IMG/VR virus record: IMGVR_UViG_3300024346_000527
Location: 1-23,502 of that record
Origin: a virus
Direction: 5' to 3' (one strand)
Length of the DNA: 23,502 bases
Part shown: piece after piece, positions 5,836-23,373 of the stretch
Layout of the letters: each line of letters begins with the position of its first letter
How positions within the stretch are numbered: the stretch's first letter is position 1
Program-made: the position numbers and the translations under genes
Notes under the pieces: model-generated
The model's input: the letters and a program-made list of their open reading frames with translations, nothing else
What the model was told of the DNA's origin: nothing
The model's database searches: none

Positions 5836-6795
5836 TTAAAAGTCATCAGTGGTTAATGAACCACCAATATTGGTTAATCTATTATATTCACCACCTTTAG
5901 TTTCGAAAAAGTTTTGTCTTTCAACAATTGAAAATGAAGCCATGAAATCGAATGGTTGCTCTACTTTAAAGACGCTTTCAATGTTATAATACATTAATAA
6001 GCTATCAGTAACGTATTGTATGTATTGAATTAACCCATCCTTAGGTAAACCTAATACATAACTACCGCCATAAATTGACTCAACGAAAAGTTTCTCAGTT
6101 TCGTAACAATCTAAAATCATTTCTTTAATTTCAGATGATGGTAACCTATATTCTTTTTTGATATAATCATTATGCATCTTTATCCCAAAATGCATATGTA
6201 ATACCTCATCTGATAAAATCAGTTCATTTGCTTGACCTAATCCAGCTAATTGAGGGTATTGTAATCTAAAGAACATAAGAACTGCAAAAGTACTGGAAAA
6301 CCCCATACCCTCTAATAATGAAAATGCGACAACTCTATGTATTATAGAACCATTTTCTAACCATTTTTTGGCCCACTTAACCTTTGCGGTTACAATTGGA
6401 TTAGTTTGAATAGCTTTAAACATAGCTTGTTTCTCTTCTTCGTTATTAATCAATTGCTCAATCAATAATGAATAAGTCTCACTATGCACATCTTCAATAT
6501 ATGCTTGGTAAACATAATTAGATTTAATTTCTTCAATAGAAGAAAATTCTGAAACTATTTCATCAGCTAAATTATCTTGCACTAATGTATCTGATACACC
6601 AAAAAATGCTAATAAATTCTTTAATATAACAACTTCACCTTCTGGAATACCTTCTAACGTGTCTTTAGATAAATCTAATTCGTCAGCCGTCCATATTTTA
6701 CTTTGTTGTTTTTTATAAAACGCCCAAAGCTCTGAGTGAATTATTGGAAATTTAGTGTCTCTATCACCATTATCTATATTTAAATACTTGCTCAT
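5836..6795 (-). CDS. nrdB: Class Ia ribonucleoside-diphosphate reductase, small (beta) radical subunit
   Basis: 319 residues. It houses the diiron-tyrosyl radical that starts catalysis in NrdA. By comparison with mouse R2, the iron ligands are Asp41 (ELDLSKD), Glu101 and His104 (IEDVHSETYSLL), Glu162 (LEGMGFSSTF), and Glu197 and His200 (LSDEVLH). The radical Tyr is Y108 in the same HSETY motif. The C-terminal tail (residues about 310-319, ending TTDDF) is the short acidic peptide that docks into NrdA. All ligands and the tyrosine are present, so this is a conventional class Ia subunit rather than a tyrosine-lacking class Ic form. The order nrdB before nrdA differs from the usual bacterial nrdAB order. 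No Shine-Dalgarno sequence is visible (upstream is AATAGATATTATATT). Confidence 0.97.
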   Translation of the reverse strand: MSKYLNIDNGDRDTKFPIIHSELWAFYKKQQSKIWTADELDLSKDTLEGIPEGEVVILKNLLAFFGVSDTLVQDNLADEIVSEFSSIEEIKSNYVYQAYIEDVHSETYSLLIEQLINNEEEKQAMFKAIQTNPIVTAKVKWAKKWLENGSIIHRVVAFSLLEGMGFSSTFAVLMFFRLQYPQLAGLGQANELILSDEVLHMHFGIKMHNDYIKKEYRLPSSEIKEMILDCYETEKLFVESIYGGSYVLGLPKDGLIQYIQYVTDSLLMYYNIESVFKVEQPFDFMASFSIVERQNFFETKGGEYNRLTNIGGSLTTDDF

Positions 6796-13262: not shown

Positions 13263-13667
13263 TTAGTAAAAAACTCGTATTAAGTCCATTAATACTAATT
13301 TATTGTTACTATTTATTATTAATTGGTCCTCATGGTTATTCCAATCGATTTTCCAATCTTTATAAACAATATTACCTTTTTCTAAGTTATGTTCACGTTC
13401 AATTAGTGAATTTAAGGCGTTTATAGTATAAAATGTTTTTCTTTTTTTATGTATGATAAGTGCGTGATTAAAGTAATCTCGTAAATTTATCCTTTCATCA
13501 ATACCTATTTCAATATAGAAAGTGTAGATGTGTTTAGATTCATGATTAAGACTTTCAAAAATGAAAACCTTATTATGTTCAATATCAAACTCTTCATATA
13601 GATATTCAAGAAACCACTTTTGTTTGTTTTTATAAACAAAGGCAGCAATCATTATTTTTTTAGTCAT
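13263..13667 (-). CDS. Unknown protein, second gene of a two-gene unit
   Basis: 134 residues, unrecognised. It starts MTKKIMIAAFVYKNKQKW and has alternating charged and aromatic stretches (many Tyr, Phe, Lys, Ile, Asn) and no clear membrane segment. It ends in a short hydrophobic tail (KLVLMDLIRVFY). Its first 8 bases overlap the end of the upstream 203-residue gene, so translation is coupled. The hydrophobic/acidic C-terminal tip loosely recalls the clamp-binding tails of phage late transcription factors, but the similarity is too short to assign. The unit is driven by the host-type promoter at 14275-14306, so it may be expressed early. Confidence 0.8.
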   Translation of the reverse strand: MTKKIMIAAFVYKNKQKWFLEYLYEEFDIEHNKVFIFESLNHESKHIYTFYIEIGIDERINLRDYFNHALIIHKKRKTFYTINALNSLIEREHNLEKGNIVYKDWKIDWNNHEDQLIINSNNKLVLMDLIRVFY

Positions 13668-14271
13668 GGGGATTTATAGAATATAGAAAAGGAAGATATT
13701 TGTAATCGTAGTTTAATCTTTCCAAATGATTGTTATATTCTATAAGTATCTCGCTACCCTCAAGAAACACGAGACTTTTTTTAATTATTTTATTTTCTAT
13801 TTTTTCAACGTCAACCCCAGCAAACCTCAATAAATTTAAATCCACCCCAAATATTAAATTATTTGAATATATGTAAATTACGTTATTTATTGATTTATAG
13901 GATATTGGGTCTTTTAATTTAAGAATTTCTTTAGTTATCTTATATAACTTACGATAGTTAAATTGAATAACATCTAAGTCAACGTAGCTTATATTTTCAA
14001 CCGCTTTTTTATAAGAATACCTCATAAAATCTTCTAAATCTCTCTGATAAACACTTCGTTCAACATTTCTTTTGAAGGTCCAAAAGGTTTTTTTATTGAT
14101 GTTACGCTTTAAAATATTAATATTTTCAGAGCCACACATCGCTACAATTGCTTCATAACCAATTATTAATGTAGGTAGGTTTGTGTATATAATATAACTC
14201 GAAGATTCAACAACATTGAATTCTGGCCCGACATTAATTGCGTCACTACAAACTATATTAGCTATTTCCAT
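13660..14271 (-). CDS. Unknown protein, first gene of a two-gene unit, possibly on a leaderless transcript
   Basis: 203 residues, unrecognised. An N-terminal beta-rich part (about 1-50, with YIIYTNLPTLIIGYEAIVAMCG) is followed by a basic, aromatic helical section (about 55-100, KKTFWTFKRNVERSVYQRDL) and a mixed C-terminal half rich in Ile, Asn and Tyr. No catalytic motif or membrane segment stands out. The gene begins 36 bases after the 1771-residue gene. The gap is almost filled by a host-type promoter whose TATATTTGC element ends 3 bases before the ATG, so the start codon would be at or very near the 5' end of the mRNA. It overlaps the next gene by 8 bases. Confidence 0.8.
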   Translation of the reverse strand: MEIANIVCSDAINVGPEFNVVESSSYIIYTNLPTLIIGYEAIVAMCGSENINILKRNINKKTFWTFKRNVERSVYQRDLEDFMRYSYKKAVENISYVDLDVIQFNYRKLYKITKEILKLKDPISYKSINNVIYIYSNNLIFGVDLNLLRFAGVDVEKIENKIIKKSLVFLEGSEILIEYNNHLERLNYDYKYLPFLYSINPHD

Positions 14272-14307: not shown

Positions 14308-17300
14308 TTATCCTATTGAATCTTCGTCAAGTCTTTCCTGATTTTTATTAAATTTCCAATCTTTTTTATCAAAAAAATGTTGCATTTGCTTAAAGGGTGC
14401 ATACCCATCAATACTTATAACATTTCTAATATCCATATGTAGGTGTGCGTCGTTAGTACCTGATTTACCAGATTTAGCAAATATAGTATTTTTTTCAATT
14501 ACTTTACCGATTGGGCCACCTTGATTTATATCCATACCAATAGTTATTTCAATATTATCAAAAAACGAATGTGTTAACTCTGATAAATGCATGTATCTGA
14601 CATAAATTTCTTGGTCTTTAACTTTAAAGTCTACATATAACCCACCTGATTTAATTTCTGGTTGCCATCTAATTCTTCTAATAATTAAATCATTGATTGT
14701 TAGCACATCAGTACCTATTTCAGCCCTGAAATCCATACCCTTATGGAATTTACCACCACTTCTAGGACCAAAATCACTTGTGACTACCATATTTTTTAAC
14801 GGGTTTGCGTAAGTGCCTTTAATTTCATCTTTTATACCTTCACTAGCATTAGCTACTAAAATTTTGTCAGAAGCACTAACATAATTTTCTAAGTTAGTTA
14901 AATTAGCATCTTCGTTATCAACTTCATTTAAATTTGCAAGTAAATGTGCGTAAATTGTTTCATTACCCACCATTTTAGTTTTAATACTCCTAATTCTAAC
15001 ACCCTTAAAGGTTGTTGTCATGTGATTTGGTTTAATATGATGTCTAGTGTTTATAATGGTATAAGCACCATCAAAAATTGGTACATTATTAATTTGAAAG
15101 AACATAAACGGTTGTATTTGCGCACAACCTAACATCTCAACTTCAGCTGAATAAGCTCTATTATTATAAACATCAAACAAATTTTGCCCAATAGAATTGT
15201 TTCGATTCAACTTAGAAAGACTATCAATTATTTCAAGACTTTCATTTGTTTCTGTAAATTCAGATTGGTTTAAATTTATTTTTTTAAATAATGATTGATT
15301 TTGGTCAGCATAATTAACTAAGAAATATGGTATACTCCTATTACCTGATTTGAAATCTGTGGGTAAATCAGTTAAAGCACCAATATTTAGTTTACCATCT
15401 TTATCATATTTAGTTGGAATGCTAAAACTGTCATCCTTTTTCTTTTTACTTTTTTTATCAATATTTAATTGACTAGATTTTTCACCAAAATACATACAAA
15501 TGAATTGTGGACCTTTAGTTTTTACTTTTTCGCTAAACCTACTTGGTTCAAATATACTTTTAACATCATCTTTATTTGAATAATCAACAAAAGTTGGTAA
15601 TGCAATAAAATCGAAATTATTAGCACTAAGTATGTCAGCAATGAAATGATAAAAACTTTTATTTGCGTTTGTTGATAATTGTTGTACGAACCCCGTTGGT
15701 GAAACTTTAAATTTGTCTCTAATATCTATGTGCGCTCTATCTAAGAAATTAAAACTATCATATAAATTTGTTGTAAGTGCTGAATCTAAATCTGGCCCTA
15801 CACCAAGAACCCATTTATTGTAAATTGATTTTACATTTTTATAAAGCCCTAATTTAATATCATCAACATTATCGGTATCAAATAAAAATTTATTTAGTTC
15901 AGTATCTGGGTCGGTTTTAGATTTGTTATTTAAATCCTTAAATGTATTTAAAAATGTTTTTAAATACTCATCAACATGTTCGGTTTTCATAACAAAATTT
16001 GTAATTCTTTTATCACTACCACCCCAAATCCTATAAGTTCCGTTAATAATTATTTTTTTCTCATTAAAAAAACTATGTAAAGCGTTAGCCGCATCACTAT
16101 CAGCTTTAATTGTTAAATCAAAAACCCCATCATTTTTATTTTTCTCAAATATTTCATAATTGTTATTACCACTTAATAAAGAATCGTTTTGGTTTGTGGT
16201 GCCAAAATTATCCCAAAATATTTGTATTGCATCGGGTGTGGTGTTAGGGTTAAAAATTTCTAAAGTACCTTTAATTTCATTCCAATCTGAGTTAACCCAA
16301 TTAATAAATTCATCAATGAATATTTTTTTAACTGAATTTGGTAATTTATCAATTACCTTTTCAAATACTGAGTTATAATTATTATTTTTAGTGAATTCAA
16401 AATTAGTCGATTTAACTTCTGTTATCACTTTAAAATTACCCACACTACTAGACCCAATTAATAATTTATCTTTACTAATATTAGGAATTTCATCTAAATT
16501 AGGTACCAATATTTCAACACCTTCATTATATTTTATTTCCCCATTGTCAAATGACTCTCGGTATAATAACCCACCTAAAAATAATATCCAAGATTTTGGA
16601 GTTGAAATAAATCCAGCTCTTTGATTGAAAAACTTTAAGTTTTTATTACCAATAATATTTTTATTAAGAATATCTTCAGAAGTTCCAGCAAATGGTATTG
16701 TGTGTAAAAATAATAAAGCTTTGGCTATATTACTTTGTGAATAATAAAATTTAGTACCAAATAATTGAAACTCTTTAGTGTTACTTTTAAATGACGGTTG
16801 AAATGTAAAATCTTTTACATTCTTTTGATTCCCACCTGTTCTAATATTTCTATTAATTAAATCAATTTTTAATTTTTCACCATAAAATTCATACGATAAT
16901 GGTATTTCTAATCCACTTACACTTTTGTACCTTGTAAACTCGTGAGTTTTGTGTAACCCACCTAATAAATCGTTATTTACTCTAATTAAACCATCACTAC
17001 TTTTAGTTACATTGGTGGTTTTATCTGGTATATACGAATTAAATTTTAAATTATTAGATTTATAAACACCCTCATCAATAATTTTAATAAATTTTTCATT
17101 TTCATCTTCTAAATCTTGAACCCCATTTGTTGTTTCATTAGAAATAACGTTACTAACAAAAATACTATTTGTGTTACTTCTAGTGTCTAGTGAATTTAAA
17201 AGATTACTTTTATCATTTATATTTATTAACCCCTTATTATTATCTATTTCATTATTACTCTGTGTGATTGGTATATATTCGTATTTATCTATAAATGCAT

Positions 17301-19623
17301 CCTCAAAATCATTAAAACCCCCTTCAGGTGCAGGTGAGTCATGATGATAAGTTTTAGTTCCATCACCATCACCAAAAAAATCATTATTGAAATACATGCG
17401 TAGTCCATGATAATCACCTATATCACCAAAATTAGTTGTTGAATTTCCTATAAATTTTGTGAATTTCGCAGCCCATTCCGTATCACTAGCACCTTCAGAC
17501 ATTATACCGTCTTTAGTTTGTTTATTAATTAACACTTCATAAGCTTGGTTAGCTTCAATCTTTGCCATGTTATTAACTTCATCTAACTCTAAATCACTAT
17601 AGCTATAGTTTAAAAATAAAGTCATTCTTTGTAACATTAATTTAATTACAGGCTCTACATTAGAATTATTTACAATTTCCCATGGGTTTTTATTATTATT
17701 ATCAAATGCTAACGTTTCTAATGGGTTTACTGGGTACCAACCTTTTCTTTTTTCAAATAAATTTTCAACATTTTCCCTATCTTTTTTAGCGGATTTTTTT
17801 ATTGACGCATATAAATCATTTATGAATATCACCTCTTGGTAATTATCAAATTTAGAGTTACTACCCATCCATTTATCTACAATAGCTCTATCATCATCGT
17901 CAATATCATTAGTTTCATCTTCTTTAGTGACATAATCTGGGAAAGCCCTAACTGAGATTTCGTTAGAACCATTTATGTGATTATATTCAGTTATATTATC
18001 TTTATTTATTATTGGTAAATTTCTATTACCACCATCAATATCTACTTTTATTTTTTTTTCTACATTCTTAAGAACCTTAACAAATAGGTCAACGTGAGAA
18101 CATAATATTTTAAATAAAGACCCTATAGATGCATCAAAACCACCCTCTTTTTTTAAATATTCGTCAATAGTTGTTGAGAATTCGTTAGTTACTTCTTTTT
18201 TGTTTTTATTAAAATCATTTTTAATTTCACTTTTTAATTGGTTAATTTTACCCAATGCAAAATTAATATTTAACATACTATACTCAACTGTTATATTGGT
18301 TGGTATCCGTCTGTTTTTAGTGAAAAATTTAGCTTCTATTATATTAATTAAATCATTATATAAATTTTCTTTAATAATATTTTCACCTTCATCTGAAACA
18401 GCTTTTAAATTTTTATATTTATTTAAAATATTATTTTCATTTTCTTGAAATTCTTGAAAACTTCTAGTTCTATTAATTCTGGAGTTAAATGTACCATCAC
18501 TATTTCGTGTCCTTGGAGCTGAATCAAGTATGAAAAAATCTGATGGTCTAAAATTATTATAATAAACCCCTTCACTATTTAATTCGAAATCATCTAAATT
18601 AATGATATAATTATCACTACCCACAATTTTGTTAAAAGATATGAATTCCTCAACTAAAGATAATGTATTTTTTTTGTAATATTCAAAATTTTTATCCGTT
18701 ATACTATCTTTTCCCAAAATTAATGAAATGAATTTACCGCTATTAACATTAAAATCATTTAAAATTGTTGAGTTATTCATTAAATTATTTAAATTACCTA
18801 ATAATGAATTTTCAATATTCTCTAACTTCGTATTTAAATCATCAAAGATAGTTAAAGCTTTTAATTTCTTATTATCATTTCTATATGCAGTAACCTTTTC
18901 TTCTAATTTCTGAACCGATAAGGTTAAGTCAGAAAAAGTTATAAAGTCAGATTGTTTATCTATAATTCCCACACCTTCTTGAGTATATGGAATTCCTTTT
19001 AAAACACCCATAAGTAAATCACTTAAAAAAGCATAAGTATATCCAATGAAATCACATGTTATTATAAAACTACCAGTATCATTATCTAACTCACCGTTGA
19101 ATTTGGTTAGGTGTAAAGCGTATTGAACTGGCTTACCATAATAACCCTTAACTGTTAAATAAAATATTGGATAAGGCATTCTAAATAAAAAACTATAAGG
19201 GGATTCGTCACCTAATTCAAATAACTTTGCCCTAATATCCTTAAATCTAATTTTTACTATTGGTGTATATGACGTATTAAAACTAATATCTATTGATTCA
19301 ATCCCTAGAACACCAACGTTTTTATTATCACTACTAAATTTAGTGTTTAATTCTGTATAGTGAGTGGTAAGGTACTTTTCTTCATCACCTGAACCATCAA
19401 TAAAACTAATTCTAGTAGCCTCTTGAGGGACTTCATTAGTTGTTACACTATTATTGTTATTATCAGAAAAAATTATTGGCTCGTCACCTCTTTCATAAAC
19501 TTCCAATTCAACTGAAATGCTTAAATCTTCCGTATTAACACTGTTAGAACCATCACCATTTGGGTCTATAACTAAAAGATTTTTAACTTGTTCAACTTGA
19601 ACATTTGAGTTTAAATTAACCAT
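14308..19623 (-). CDS. Giant baseplate hub-like protein with C-terminal M23 peptidoglycan endopeptidase domain
   Basis: 1771 residues. The N-terminal part (about 85-215, with VKIRFKDIRAKLFEL and YPIFYLTVKGYYGKP) looks like a beta-rich baseplate domain. A region at about 1480-1550 (PFMFFQINNVPIFDGAYTI, then HHIKPNHMTTTFKGVRI) resembles the hub/late-control fold of gp27- or D-type tail proteins. Residues about 1605-1745 are an M23 (LytM-type) metallopeptidase: SDFGPR, then HKGMD (zinc ligands H1627 and D1631), YMHL (H1679) and HLHMD (H1727, H1729), so the zinc site is complete. M23 enzymes cut peptide cross-links in peptidoglycan. The chain would thus serve as tail-tip hub and wall-cutting enzyme, work done in T4 by gp27 and the muramidase gp5. 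About 1200 central residues are unassigned. It overlaps the gp53-type gene by 8 bases. Confidence 0.88.
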   Translation of the reverse strand: MVNLNSNVQVEQVKNLLVIDPNGDGSNSVNTEDLSISVELEVYERGDEPIIFSDNNNNSVTTNEVPQEATRISFIDGSGDEEKYLTTHYTELNTKFSSDNKNVGVLGIESIDISFNTSYTPIVKIRFKDIRAKLFELGDESPYSFLFRMPYPIFYLTVKGYYGKPVQYALHLTKFNGELDNDTGSFIITCDFIGYTYAFLSDLLMGVLKGIPYTQEGVGIIDKQSDFITFSDLTLSVQKLEEKVTAYRNDNKKLKALTIFDDLNTKLENIENSLLGNLNNLMNNSTILNDFNVNSGKFISLILGKDSITDKNFEYYKKNTLSLVEEFISFNKIVGSDNYIINLDDFELNSEGVYYNNFRPSDFFILDSAPRTRNSDGTFNSRINRTRSFQEFQENENNILNKYKNLKAVSDEGENIIKENLYNDLINIIEAKFFTKNRRIPTNITVEYSMLNINFALGKINQLKSEIKNDFNKNKKEVTNEFSTTIDEYLKKEGGFDASIGSLFKILCSHVDLFVKVLKNVEKKIKVDIDGGNRNLPIINKDNITEYNHINGSNEISVRAFPDYVTKEDETNDIDDDDRAIVDKWMGSNSKFDNYQEVIFINDLYASIKKSAKKDRENVENLFEKRKGWYPVNPLETLAFDNNNKNPWEIVNNSNVEPVIKLMLQRMTLFLNYSYSDLELDEVNNMAKIEANQAYEVLINKQTKDGIMSEGASDTEWAAKFTKFIGNSTTNFGDIGDYHGLRMYFNNDFFGDGDGTKTYHHDSPAPEGGFNDFEDAFIDKYEYIPITQSNNEIDNNKGLININDKSNLLNSLDTRSNTNSIFVSNVISNETTNGVQDLEDENEKFIKIIDEGVYKSNNLKFNSYIPDKTTNVTKSSDGLIRVNNDLLGGLHKTHEFTRYKSVSGLEIPLSYEFYGEKLKIDLINRNIRTGGNQKNVKDFTFQPSFKSNTKEFQLFGTKFYYSQSNIAKALLFLHTIPFAGTSEDILNKNIIGNKNLKFFNQRAGFISTPKSWILFLGGLLYRESFDNGEIKYNEGVEILVPNLDEIPNISKDKLLIGSSSVGNFKVITEVKSTNFEFTKNNNYNSVFEKVIDKLPNSVKKIFIDEFINWVNSDWNEIKGTLEIFNPNTTPDAIQIFWDNFGTTNQNDSLLSGNNNYEIFEKNKNDGVFDLTIKADSDAANALHSFFNEKKIIINGTYRIWGGSDKRITNFVMKTEHVDEYLKTFLNTFKDLNNKSKTDPDTELNKFLFDTDNVDDIKLGLYKNVKSIYNKWVLGVGPDLDSALTTNLYDSFNFLDRAHIDIRDKFKVSPTGFVQQLSTNANKSFYHFIADILSANNFDFIALPTFVDYSNKDDVKSIFEPSRFSEKVKTKGPQFICMYFGEKSSQLNIDKKSKKKKDDSFSIPTKYDKDGKLNIGALTDLPTDFKSGNRSIPYFLVNYADQNQSLFKKINLNQSEFTETNESLEIIDSLSKLNRNNSIGQNLFDVYNNRAYSAEVEMLGCAQIQPFMFFQINNVPIFDGAYTIINTRHHIKPNHMTTTFKGVRIRSIKTKMVGNETIYAHLLANLNEVDNEDANLTNLENYVSASDKILVANASEGIKDEIKGTYANPLKNMVVTSDFGPRSGGKFHKGMDFRAEIGTDVLTINDLIIRRIRWQPEIKSGGLYVDFKVKDQEIYVRYMHLSELTHSFFDNIEITIGMDINQGGPIGKVIEKNTIFAKSGKSGTNDAHLHMDIRNVISIDGYAPFKQMQHFFDKKDWKFNKNQERLDEDSIG

Positions 19624-19936
19624 ATAATTTAAAATATTTATCTACACCTTCTAAATAATCATTAACTGATGTTACAAAAGGGAAAGGCACTCGTATTATT
19701 TTATTATTTGGTATGTTAAATTCTAAACCACCAAATTCAGGATTAGCCAACATGATTAACCACCCATAGTATGGGGTGTCATAATATTTTTGACTTAATA
19801 TATCAAATCTAGTGCTACCACCTTTATAAGTCAAGTACTTATCTGTGTTTTTTTCAGGTATATTAATACCTGGTACTGGTTTATAATCACTATCACTTTT
19901 AAACCTATCGTATCTATCTAAATATTTTTGTGCCAT
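19616..19936 (-). CDS. 53: Small baseplate wedge protein, gp53 / LysM-like
   Basis: 106 residues. The core (about 36-85: YKGGSTRFDILSQKYYDTPYYGWLIMLANPEF, in short YKGG..R.D.L..KYY....Y.WLI..ANP) is the signature of gp53-type baseplate proteins, related to the LysM fold. It is shorter than T4 gp53 (196), keeping mainly the LysM-like region. In T4, gp53 clamps the wedge inner ring to the hub. It lies 11 bases after the 1141-residue gene and overlaps the hub gene by 8 bases, consistent with coupled expression of interacting parts. A plain LysM tail protein (gpX-like) is the alternative reading. Confidence 0.82.
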   Translation of the reverse strand: MAQKYLDRYDRFKSDSDYKPVPGINIPEKNTDKYLTYKGGSTRFDILSQKYYDTPYYGWLIMLANPEFGGLEFNIPNNKIIRVPFPFVTSVNDYLEGVDKYFKLYG

Positions 19937-19947
19937 AATTTATCTTT

Positions 19948-22900
19948 TTAAACCCAATCACCATAATCGGTAATTTTGGAAATATCCCCACCTTTTATCG
20001 TTAATTTAAAATTACCTGAACTATAATCAGCATAAGGTGATTCGTCCCAAACATCTGGTGCTAAAATTACACCACCAGTTGTTGATGAATTAACTTTAAA
20101 GGATAAAACACTTTTATATGATAATCCATTATTTGAATCAGCGTCTATAACTTCTAGAATAACAGTATATTCATCAGTTAAATTTAACATTTCAGCTTCA
20201 ATAACACTATAAGTAAATATAAATGTATTATTAACGGCTGAATCAAAAGTTACAATCCAACCAATAAATGATTCGATTAAAATTTGCCTATCATTTTTTG
20301 TATCAATTGTAAGTTCAGTTCCTTTTTTAGCTTCAATTTCACTAACAACACTTTGTTTAGGTCGTATACCTGTTTTAGGTTTTTCTTTAGGGTATTGATT
20401 GTCATCAACAATTTCCTTTAAATTAGTTTCACCGTTTTTAAAGTCAAATAATAAACCGTTTTTAGGGTCAATTTCATCTTTCCTTACAAACCTATCAGCT
20501 CTAGGGTCATAAACACCTGAATTAGCAAAATAATTAAATGAAACTGCGTTTTGTAATTTATTAATTGGACCATTCAATGAACTACCACCAATAAATTTAA
20601 AACCTATTGACACATTTGCTATCATTGGTTGAACACCCACACCTTCTGGATTTAAATCCCAAACTAATGGGTCGTAAGTAATCGCTAAAGAATTCATTAT
20701 TATTTTAGTGTTATAAAAATCACCAATTCTTAAAATACATACTGGTGGTGAACCAAAAGCTAAATTATTACTTTTATTCCCTTTATCGGTTGGCCCTTGT
20801 CTAGTACATTGTTGTAAAAACGTTAATCTAGAGTTAAAACCTTCTGGTGTTGTTGAATGAAATGCTGGGTGAAAAAATTTAATTTTCTCTTTAATTGTAT
20901 CATAAATTATTCCATCACTTTCAACATCACTATTTTTTAATTTTTCAAAATATTCATCTTCACGATGAAATCTTCTTTTTATTTTTTCTAATAATTCATT
21001 TGTAGTGTTAACTTTTTCTTTTTTAACATCAGTAATATTATATATTTGGTCATCATCCTTTGCTTGATATTCGAATTCCACAGTTACTATTCTTTCAGAT
21101 TTAACCCCAATAGAGTCAACCGTTCCATCAGATTTACTGTCTTTATCCCCATTTGATTCCGCTTTTAAAAATTTAATATCACTATTAATATTAGTTTTAA
21201 ACCAATCTTCAATAGCCGTTATCCTAGCATCTGACAATGCTTTATTATCGTCGGGGTTACCAGCAAGACTAGCATAACCTTTTAGTTTTACTCTTATCCC
21301 AGTATTTTCCGACATCTCATCTTTTAAAATATCAGTAAACCCAGCATAATCCCAATCATCGTTTAATCCATAATTAGTAGTATTAGATGAAGGTGTGCCA
21401 ACAGCAGATGTATAACCCTCAGATAAAGTTGGATTGGTTAACACCCCATTAGTTTGTTCATAACCCACTACACCTAATGAAGCGACATCATTAGGGAAAT
21501 AAAAATTAAAGTTATCTGGTAAATTAATTGGTGACACTGGCATTTCATCATCGGACTCAACATTAGCATTAATTTCTTCATTTAAAATCCTAGATTCTTC
21601 AGTTGAAAAATATTTATTATAATCTAAACACCCCGAAGCTAAACTAGCCATTAATTCATCTGTAGTAATTTTTGAATCATTCATGTAATCTGGATAATCA
21701 ATTATTACTTTGAAATCTAAGTTACCACTTCTTTCAGTGTTATTGTAGGTATAAATCGGTTCACCTCTACCAACAAAGTTTGTGGAATCCCAATTAACAG
21801 TAGTTGTGTCAGTGAATTTAATATCATATGGTGGGAACCACATAACTCTACCTTTAGTCCCAGTTTTGGGGTCACCATTACCAATTTCAAATTTAGGTAA
21901 ATTTTCTCTTTTGTCATTCCAAGCAAGATTTTCAATTGAAAACATGAATTTCTTAGCATCGTAAGCATTTTCTGATTCACCTTGAGGGACATTGTATGGG
22001 GATATTTTAACAAACCCATTATCACCTAACACAGAATCTTCTATATCATTTCTGATTTTATTTTTGTAATTATATAATCCCTTATTTTTTTGTAAATCAG
22101 CAACATTACTATAACTTTTACTTTCAGTCCATGTTCTACAAAATACATTATCTTTATCCCCTTGTTTTAAAAAACCCTCAGAGAGCACACCAGAGCCTTT
22201 TGATAATCTACCACCTGATGGAGTGTTTATTTGTGAAATGTCAAGAGAAGGTGTTCCTTGTGCGTCAAACATAGCTTTAGTGTATGCTGGTTGCGCCTCA
22301 AATAATCTTTTGGTTTTACCTATGATTGATTTATCTTCATTGGTAGTTGTTACAAAATCCATTTCCCAAACATTACCTAAAAGTTTAGTGTCTAATGGTC
22401 TAATATATTTGGTAATATCAGTTAAATCACTACCCTTATCTGGGTAACTATCGGGGTCAACAATACCAACTTTACTACCATTATCTGTTTCATAATCAGG
22501 TTTATACCTAAATGTTGGAACATCACCAAGATTATTTGTTTTAACTATTTTAGATTGATTTGCATTAATTCCATCGAATAAACGCATTACTTGACCTTTA
22601 CCAGTGTTTTTTATTAATGATTCATTTCTTAATTTACTACTTTGGTTAAAACCTGAATCACTTTCAAATATTGAACCACCTTCATCAATTGTAGATAATG
22701 GTAAATTAAAACCAGATAAATCTAAAACAGTATCAAATACTCTACCACCACTAGTACTACTAACAGTAATATCATAATTTGGATTTAAAAAATCAGCACC
22801 TCTTAATAAACTAAATGGTTGGAGATTTACCTTACCTAATAATTCTCTTTGTGCATTAAAGGCCGCTTTTTGACCAAAAGCCAATAAAAGTTGTTGACCA

Positions 22901-23373
22901 CCAATAATTCCTAAAGGTGTGTCATTAATACCACCAGTTGAACCTAAAACCCTACCAGCTAAACTACTTCTAATATCACCATTGCTAAGAACACCACCAG
23001 TTGCTAAACCATCAATCACATCATAAGCTTGAGTTGATGCTCCACCAATATTTAATTCTTTATTTTCATCAATATAACCACCATTTGTTTGAGCATAACT
23101 AAAGCTATTATCAATTATTGTAGCTGAAACCATATCATCAGTTGAAATATATCTATTCCTACCAATTACTGATTTTCTATATTCAATTGCACTTAATTCT
23201 AAATTTTCAGAAGCTATAATTGAATTTTCATTTGAAGATATATTAGCTTGTGAACCTAAACCAACGGCAACACTACTTAAACCATTATCAGAAATACTAT
23301 CTGATACAATTAAGTTTCTATTTAATAAAAAATCCCTAATATCAGGTGATAAATCATTTATTCCGTTACTCAT
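19948..23373 (-). CDS. Large baseplate/tail structural protein with an embedded OmpA-like domain
   Basis: 1141 residues. The N-terminal 470 residues are Ser/Asn/Gly-rich and unassigned. Residues about 475-575 (MFSIENLAW, GRVMWFPPYDIKF, GRGEPIYTYNNTERSG) and about 830-930 (FNSRLTFLQQCTRQG, ILRIGDFYNTKIIM, GVGVQPMIANVSIGFKFIGG) look like two parts of a tail-tube/baseplate beta domain. Between them, residues about 620-770 form an OmpA-like domain: strand FNFYFPND, then KLKGYASLAG and NKALSDARITAIEDWF, the G.AS..G / N..LS..R pattern. OmpA-like domains bind peptidoglycan. The C-terminal region (about 1020-1110) resembles an immunoglobulin-like module. It is the first gene of the late operon with gp53 and the M23 hub. 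The exact T4 counterpart is unclear (gp48/gp54-type is possible). Confidence 0.85.
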   Translation of the reverse strand: MSNGINDLSPDIRDFLLNRNLIVSDSISDNGLSSVAVGLGSQANISSNENSIIASENLELSAIEYRKSVIGRNRYISTDDMVSATIIDNSFSYAQTNGGYIDENKELNIGGASTQAYDVIDGLATGGVLSNGDIRSSLAGRVLGSTGGINDTPLGIIGGQQLLLAFGQKAAFNAQRELLGKVNLQPFSLLRGADFLNPNYDITVSSTSGGRVFDTVLDLSGFNLPLSTIDEGGSIFESDSGFNQSSKLRNESLIKNTGKGQVMRLFDGINANQSKIVKTNNLGDVPTFRYKPDYETDNGSKVGIVDPDSYPDKGSDLTDITKYIRPLDTKLLGNVWEMDFVTTTNEDKSIIGKTKRLFEAQPAYTKAMFDAQGTPSLDISQINTPSGGRLSKGSGVLSEGFLKQGDKDNVFCRTWTESKSYSNVADLQKNKGLYNYKNKIRNDIEDSVLGDNGFVKISPYNVPQGESENAYDAKKFMFSIENLAWNDKRENLPKFEIGNGDPKTGTKGRVMWFPPYDIKFTDTTTVNWDSTNFVGRGEPIYTYNNTERSGNLDFKVIIDYPDYMNDSKITTDELMASLASGCLDYNKYFSTEESRILNEEINANVESDDEMPVSPINLPDNFNFYFPNDVASLGVVGYEQTNGVLTNPTLSEGYTSAVGTPSSNTTNYGLNDDWDYAGFTDILKDEMSENTGIRVKLKGYASLAGNPDDNKALSDARITAIEDWFKTNINSDIKFLKAESNGDKDSKSDGTVDSIGVKSERIVTVEFEYQAKDDDQIYNITDVKKEKVNTTNELLEKIKRRFHREDEYFEKLKNSDVESDGIIYDTIKEKIKFFHPAFHSTTPEGFNSRLTFLQQCTRQGPTDKGNKSNNLAFGSPPVCILRIGDFYNTKIIMNSLAITYDPLVWDLNPEGVGVQPMIANVSIGFKFIGGSSLNGPINKLQNAVSFNYFANSGVYDPRADRFVRKDEIDPKNGLLFDFKNGETNLKEIVDDNQYPKEKPKTGIRPKQSVVSEIEAKKGTELTIDTKNDRQILIESFIGWIVTFDSAVNNTFIFTYSVIEAEMLNLTDEYTVILEVIDADSNNGLSYKSVLSFKVNSSTTGGVILAPDVWDESPYADYSSGNFKLTIKGGDISKITDYGDWV

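Follow-up and report, generated by a model that had tools for sequence, protein, structure and literature searches.

A probable baseplate hub with an exchangeable cell-wall enzyme at its C-terminal end in a T4-type phage

The window, by which we mean the whole 23.5-kb virus record analysed here, carries on its minus strand a gene cluster that includes an open reading frame of 1771 amino acids (14308-19623) ending in an M23 peptidase domain. Taken together, the data make it likely that this protein is the central hub of a T4-type contractile phage, with an exchangeable enzyme slot at its end, probable docking of a separately encoded amidase where the hub ends in a short tail, and a spike of the OB type that is free of enzyme. 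Relatives of the protein have repeatedly swapped the hub end for other wall enzymes, or for a short tail plus a separate enzyme gene. For brevity the protein and its homologues are called hubs, and the compared loci are cited by their L numbers.

Results

Gene content of the window

The minus-strand genes of the window include matches to, or readings as, gp25, gp6, NrdA/B, a gp41-type helicase, RNase H, UvsX, a gp32-like SSB and a gp53-like wedge protein, the names of the replication genes being partly assigned by reading the sequence. The parts of the giant ORF and its two immediate neighbours, all on the minus strand, are as follows.

19616-19936, minus strand: gp53-like baseplate wedge protein, 106 aa (phrog_7145, E 0.0028)
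14308-19623, minus strand: giant hub ORF, 1771 aa, with M23 at the C-terminus (single open frame, homologues)
18979-19623, minus strand: residues 1-215, N-terminal tail-tube/hub-like domain (conserved in all hubs; AF2 strand/helix pattern at 106-194)
15892-18978, minus strand: residues 216-1244, long variable insertion, partly helical and poorly predicted (conservation profile, AF2)
14938-15891, minus strand: residues 1245-1562, second conserved hub-like domain (conservation; the model of 1100-1771 matches hub proteins)
14800-14937, minus strand: residues 1563-1608, linker, the slot beginning near residue 1575 (end of homology between enzyme types)
14311-14799, minus strand: residues 1609-1771, M23 peptidase domain and C-terminal extension (Pfam match at 14422-14751, AlphaFold, alignment)
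14743-14745, minus strand: His1627 of HxxxD, predicted zinc ligand (alignment)
14731-14733, minus strand: Asp1631 of HxxxD, predicted zinc ligand (alignment)
14587-14589, minus strand: His1679 of YMH, predicted catalytic His (alignment)
14437-14445, minus strand: HLH 1727-1729, predicted catalytic His and zinc ligand (alignment)
14308-14310, minus strand: stop codon, 3' end of the slot (DNA comparison of the window with L002)
13660-14271, minus strand: conserved 203-aa gene, marker on the 3' side of the slot (seen in the compared loci)

The model phrog_7145 is also matched by T4 gp53. The gp53-like gene overlaps the start of the hub ORF by 8 bp; in T4, gene 53 overlaps gene 5, which follows it. 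By its overlap and its place behind the gp53-like gene, like T4 gene 5 after 53, the position of the hub in the window agrees with the T4 order.

Upstream of the gp53-like gene lies a gene of 1141 aa (19948-23373) with an OmpA/Pal-like peptidoglycan-binding domain, matched by Pfam OmpA with an E-value of 5e-4 (below cut-off, in the L003 homologue) and by the Pal profile with 0.004. On the 3' side of the slot two small genes of about 200 and 134 aa (13660-14271 and 13263-13667 in the window) are found in the loci read, neither with a family match. The helicase gene of L003 (L003:21336-23786) encodes 816 aa, as opposed to 477 aa in the window, and so probably carries an insert, e.g. an intein.

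As for the host, the closest relatives of the window NrdB (5836-6795) are those of Tenacibaculum phages, at 36-39% identity, a similarity that may be taken as a hint of a Bacteroidota host. The Bacteroidota-type promoter TTTG-N-TAnnTTTG was rejected as host evidence, with 3 matches found where 2.4 are expected; one of them falls exactly between the hub and the next gene. A scan of GTDB genomes for the host gave no relative.

The M23 peptidase domain

Pfam PF01551 covers residues 1625-1734 (window 14422-14751) with an E-value of 3.2e-7 and 30.9 bits against a cut-off of 28.7, and a six-frame search of the window gave M23 35.9 bits. The residues H1627-x3-D1631, H1679 (YMH) and H1727-x-H1729 are all kept and align with those of 23 other hub-borne M23 domains. 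The AlphaFold pLDDT of the domain is mostly 80-95, and the 40 best PDB matches of the M23 part (Foldseek, model of residues 1100-1771) are M23/LytM peptidases or LytM-fold domains. With zinc site, middle His and LytM fold all found, the domain belongs to peptidase family M23. The sequence-only reading, which had an M23 domain with a full zinc site end the 1771-residue protein at residues ~1605-1745, placed it rightly: Pfam, the HxxxD/YxH/HxH motifs and AlphaFold agree. A contig of 197 kb (L015) has the same M23 ending, 61% identical to that of the window. Independent contigs carry homologues over the full length of the ORF, and so the fusion of hub and M23 is not an assembly artefact.

In a clade of hubs of about 2100 aa (L030, L038, L041, L043, L062, L063, L076-L092 and others) the M23 zinc ligands are kept and the middle catalytic His (YxH) is replaced in almost all by Phe, Tyr or Asn. 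These domains may be inactive or altered enzymes, to judge by their alignment. The middle His is intact in the window, L015, L028, L068, L036, L032, L033, L064 and L085.

The hub family

Direct search yielded 12 loci with hub relatives, profile search 14, and search by way of the conserved gp53-like neighbour 80. In all 57 distinct complete loci compared, the ORF behind the gp53-like gene is a homologue of the window hub. Homologues range from 1560 to 2490 aa. All unsplit hubs share two conserved stretches, residues ~15-215 and ~1180-1562, separated by a variable part; in L053 the second of these matches weakly. Residues 1245-1562 of the window hub contain the motifs IQPFMFFQ...FDGAYTI...HMTTTFKGVR. 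No phage in INPHARED matches the hub outside the M23 domain, and the gp53-like protein had no match there either; the lineage is therefore uncultivated, as far as that collection goes. In BFVD two long structural homologues of the hub were found (E ~1e-22), one of them named only 'Lysozyme'.

Some hub genes are interrupted or divided. In L053 (L053:14905-15768) the end of the hub resembles an intein/Hint domain (PF14890, E 2e-8, narrowly missing the cut-off), so that the gene there seems interrupted. In L093 (3925-13929) and L094 (5635-15639) two ORFs of ~950 and ~1650 aa take the place of a single hub frame, and a third frame behind them holds M23 and lysozyme2 in L093 and DUF2272 in L094; this arrangement is a split form of the same hub-enzyme device.

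Enzyme types in the C-terminal slot

Homology among the closest hubs ends near residue ~1575, relatives being conserved to ~1580-1590. An M23 match inside the hub frame is present in 29 of 50 records, and the slots of the window and L015, both M23, are those 61% identical to each other. The slot holds Phage_lysozyme2 (PF18013) in the L003 group and L014, DUF2272 with lysozyme2 in L034, DUF2272 in L054, and a VanY-type peptidase in L048 (E 2e-10) and, below cut-off, in L050. L014 has a glucosaminidase gene in addition to its fused lysozyme. The hubs of L002 and L004 end ~52 residues past the slot start, where an Amidase_2 gene begins with a 1-nt TAATG overlap; the L070 hub likewise ends early, with a CHAP-like gene behind it (weak match, E 0.0015).

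Eight hub tails are unassigned (L029, L031, L035, L060, L073, L074, L086 and L087); seven of them gave no convincing family in Pfam, and that of L086 was put with L074 by eye. The tails of L029, L035, L060 and L061, for which Pfam gave nothing convincing, share RxRGYLxVxxR/F-like stretches that by eye resemble chitinase-type (GH19) endolysins. Those of L073 and L087, without a Pfam match, end in a GDS-L-like stretch (LLGDSGV...VGxNxxY) and may be SGNH/GDSL esterases.

Exchange between phages

The window and L002 are 99.2% identical in DNA over 3083 bp starting exactly at the slot stop codon (window 14310 down to 11228, L002 5643-8725), whereas the DNA of their hubs agrees at only 66-86% and their enzymes differ, M23 in the window and amidase in L002. 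In a tree built from the two conserved hub stretches, the hub closest to that of the window carries lysozyme and the second closest goes with an amidase, and in the clade of six hubs to which the window belongs M23, lysozyme and amidase are interleaved. Over the whole tree the enzyme labels need 13 changes, the least possible being 7; taken singly, lysozyme and amidase need two changes each and M23 at least seven.

Separately encoded amidases and the hub tail

An amidase scan found four further lineages with the order hub then amidase (L115, L116, L118 and L119). The last residues of the six hubs that go with a separate amidase gene are LIQGIVIED, LLQGIVIEE, VIEGIIIED, QESSGGIII, DQTQIIINK and SDNGVIYIS, and the linkers preceding these Ile/Val-rich tails differ. 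Three successive residues I, V or Y within the last nine are found in all six, compared with 1 of 53 other hubs, and such runs occur in 1-3% of the nine-residue stretches of the same hub proteins. Between L002 and L004 the codons of GIVIE differ at third positions only. We infer from these tails that the Ile/Val-rich end holds the amidase, a hypothesis with good support; it is not a proof, because the motif was picked with the sequences already in view and the six lineages are relatives of one another. The amidases of L002, L004, L115 and L116 have a conserved sequence near their C-termini, YSxxxLSxxVxDISFxSDL, with which the hub tail may pair.

Evidence for a hub fold

Two AF2 models were made, of residues 1-1190 (mean pLDDT 61, pTM 0.38) and 1100-1771 (mean pLDDT 67, pTM 0.39), and both were searched against the PDB with Foldseek, matches being assigned to each model as a whole. 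Among the 50 best matches of the N-terminal model, roughly four in five are chains of phage tails, CIS or VgrG; VgrG1, VgrS and T4 gp27 (1k28_D, probability 0.95) are among them. Behind the block of M23 matches, those of the C-terminal model are mostly hub or tail-tip proteins: the HFTV1 tail (E 1.3e-3), the Pam3 baseplate, the Chi tail tip and the P1 baseplate, as well as the Anabaena CIS baseplate, the pyocin R2 hub, 3d37 and the MuSo2 tail protein 3cdd. The E-values of the hub matches are weak (0.001-0.7) and the models of modest confidence. The tail-tube fold is common to tube, terminator and distal-tail proteins.

Profile comparisons were less favourable. Neither hhalign of the giant ORF against T4 gp27 nor a PHROGs search for hub families gave a significant hit, and kinship with gp27 by sequence profile was dropped as an argument. 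The weak values, the shared tail-tube fold and the negative gp27 comparison leave the assignment of the giant ORF as a hub, which these models favour, supported but not proven. Of the hub-like region proposed in the sequence-only reading, the structural side is supported, models of both ends matching hub, VgrG and gp27 proteins, and the hhalign comparison with gp27 is negative. The needle which that reading allowed for in the ~1000 middle residues found no support: in the AF2 model this part is a mix of alpha and beta structure, in places predicted with very low confidence, and contains no beta-helix. Nor did Pfam and PHROGs find in the giant ORF a T4 gp5-type combination of OB fold, GH24 lysozyme and beta-helix needle.

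A spike-like chain in relatives

A separate gp27/gp5 pair elsewhere in the genome would have spoken against hub and enzyme on one chain. In nine large related contigs the gp27 family model phrog_1135 found nothing, with the T4 positive control matched, and a gp5-OB-like chain without lysozyme is present in two. In these the PHROG model of the gp5 family matches a 313-aa protein of the 197-kb L015 contig and a 363-aa protein of the 318-kb L048 contig, weakly (E 1e-5 to 3e-3) and over only the first ~94 positions of the model. The two proteins are 35% identical and have neighbouring genes in common, and no lysozyme family was found in either; hhalign of the OB-like chain against T4 gp5 gave P 5e-4 across the start of the OB region. 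The Pfam family Gp5_OB gave no match, the control being likewise silent, so that this search carries no weight; a PAAR tip protein was found in none of 20 related records. The window is too short to hold the gene. The genomes of L015 and L048 thus have their enzyme on the hub and none on the OB-like chain, which is the reverse of T4.

Proposed mechanism and alternative readings

The 1771-aa protein would sit at the centre of the baseplate of a T4-type phage with a contractile tail and serve as its hub. A trimeric ring at the end of the tail tube is probably made by residues 1-215 and 1245-1562, the variable insertion of ~1000 residues lying between these two domains, and the short linker past residue ~1575 would suspend the M23 endopeptidase beneath the hub. 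Contraction of the tail would push three copies across the envelope, where they would cut peptide cross-links and so clear the way for the tube. When phages recombine, the stretch between residue ~1575 and the stop codon would be exchanged for a different wall-cutting enzyme, or for a short tail rich in Ile and Val, to which an amidase encoded by its own gene probably docks. As for the OB-fold spike, at least two related genomes would encode it as a chain of its own that bears no enzyme.

Since the tail-tube fold is common to many tail proteins and the gp27 profile comparison fails, the giant protein might instead be another tube-fold protein of the tail tip, such as a gp48/gp54-like cap or a wedge, and the true hub a small one, e.g. 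the 399-406-aa product that occupies the place of T4 gene 27 between gp26-like and tape-measure genes. We regard this as unlikely. The 406-aa family has no Pfam or PHROGs hub-family match and no PDB match by profile, whereas the giant ORF follows the gp53-like gene with an overlap, has structural matches to gp27, VgrG and other hub proteins, and has its wall enzyme at the end of a single central chain, following the hub/Tal pattern. Slightly more improbable still is an assembly chimera of two co-occurring phages behind the apparent swap between the window and L002. A junction this sharp, falling on the stop codon itself and with 99.2% identity to one side of it, could be the mark of one, and L002 is only 8.7 kb long, but the M23 hub (L015) and the amidase hub (L004-L006, L115-L119) recur in independent contigs with flanks of their own, so that exchangeability does not hang on this pair.

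It is least probable, in our judgement, that the M23 end, or the slot enzymes generally, are lysis-phase enzymes or structural remnants and have no part in injection. The amidase, being a separate gene, could be an ordinary endolysin, and the loss of the middle His in the ~2100-aa clade means that some hub M23 domains may be inactive. Against this, the enzyme of the window is covalently part of a tail protein and has a complete site, the assigned slot occupants are wall hydrolases, and in the L015 genome a distant, weakly amidase-like gene could serve lysis.

Comparison with known systems

The sequence-only reading had implied that joining a hub and an M23 enzyme in one chain was new. This was too strong, as the Tal proteins of the siphophages Tuc2009 (M23) and TP901-1 are established cases of a gp27-fold hub with C-terminal hydrolases on one chain (PMC6115969, PMC11409707), and enterococcal Tal proteins end in M23, CHAP, lysozyme or amidase (PMC10194240). 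The likeness to Tal lies in a C-terminal peptidoglycan hydrolase varying by phage and, to judge by structural matches, probably in an N-terminal hub of gp27 fold. The cited papers concern phages of Gram-positive hosts, mainly siphophages, whereas here the genome is of the T4 type with gp25, gp6 and gp53-like baseplate genes. Tal follows the TMP and Dit genes of the siphophage, and the window hub a gp53-like gene in a T4-type cluster. The present hubs are also of 1560-2490 aa, with an insertion of ~1000 residues between two conserved ends and sometimes a separate enzyme plus a C-terminal hub tail, and Tal has no detectable sequence similarity to the window hub outside M23.

In T4 the lysozyme lies within gp5, between the OB fold and the beta-helix, and gp27 is separate. 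The present device resembles gp27-gp5 in having the hub beside gp53, a wall enzyme probably delivered by the tail tip and, in relatives, a gp5-OB-like chain; it differs in that an enzyme of another class is on the hub chain and the OB-like chain has none. VgrG hubs of the T6SS bear a C-terminal effector domain in some members and a non-covalent effector in others. The choice between a fused and a non-covalent payload on the hub is thus shared with evolved and cargo VgrG, but VgrG includes the gp5 OB fold and the needle, which here are off the hub chain, and the payload here is a wall hydrolase for phage entry. Fused or cargo effectors of VgrG are treated in PMC4067218. By these Tal and VgrG precedents, the principle of a hub with a swappable hydrolase is known. 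As far as could be found, there is no description of the T4-type setting, the size, the redistribution of T4 modules or the slot that is either fused or docked.

Biological meaning

More tentatively, and with somewhat less than even confidence, we propose a widespread uncultivated T4-type lineage with a modular tip, in which the hub has a recombination slot, enzymes are fused or docked by Ile/Val-rich tails, and the spike is enzyme-free. The T4-type puncturing device would in this lineage be rearranged, with the enzyme on the hub chain instead of the spike chain and in an exchangeable position. Uncharacterised phage proteins of 1500-2500 residues would gain a concrete structural role. The natural series of hubs with different warheads offers a probe of how entry enzymes are matched to host walls, and the Ile/Val hub tail with its amidase a simple docking peptide open to experiment. 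If true, the modular tip would be the phage counterpart of evolved and cargo VgrG, and would allow adaptation to wall chemistry with the injection machine left untouched.
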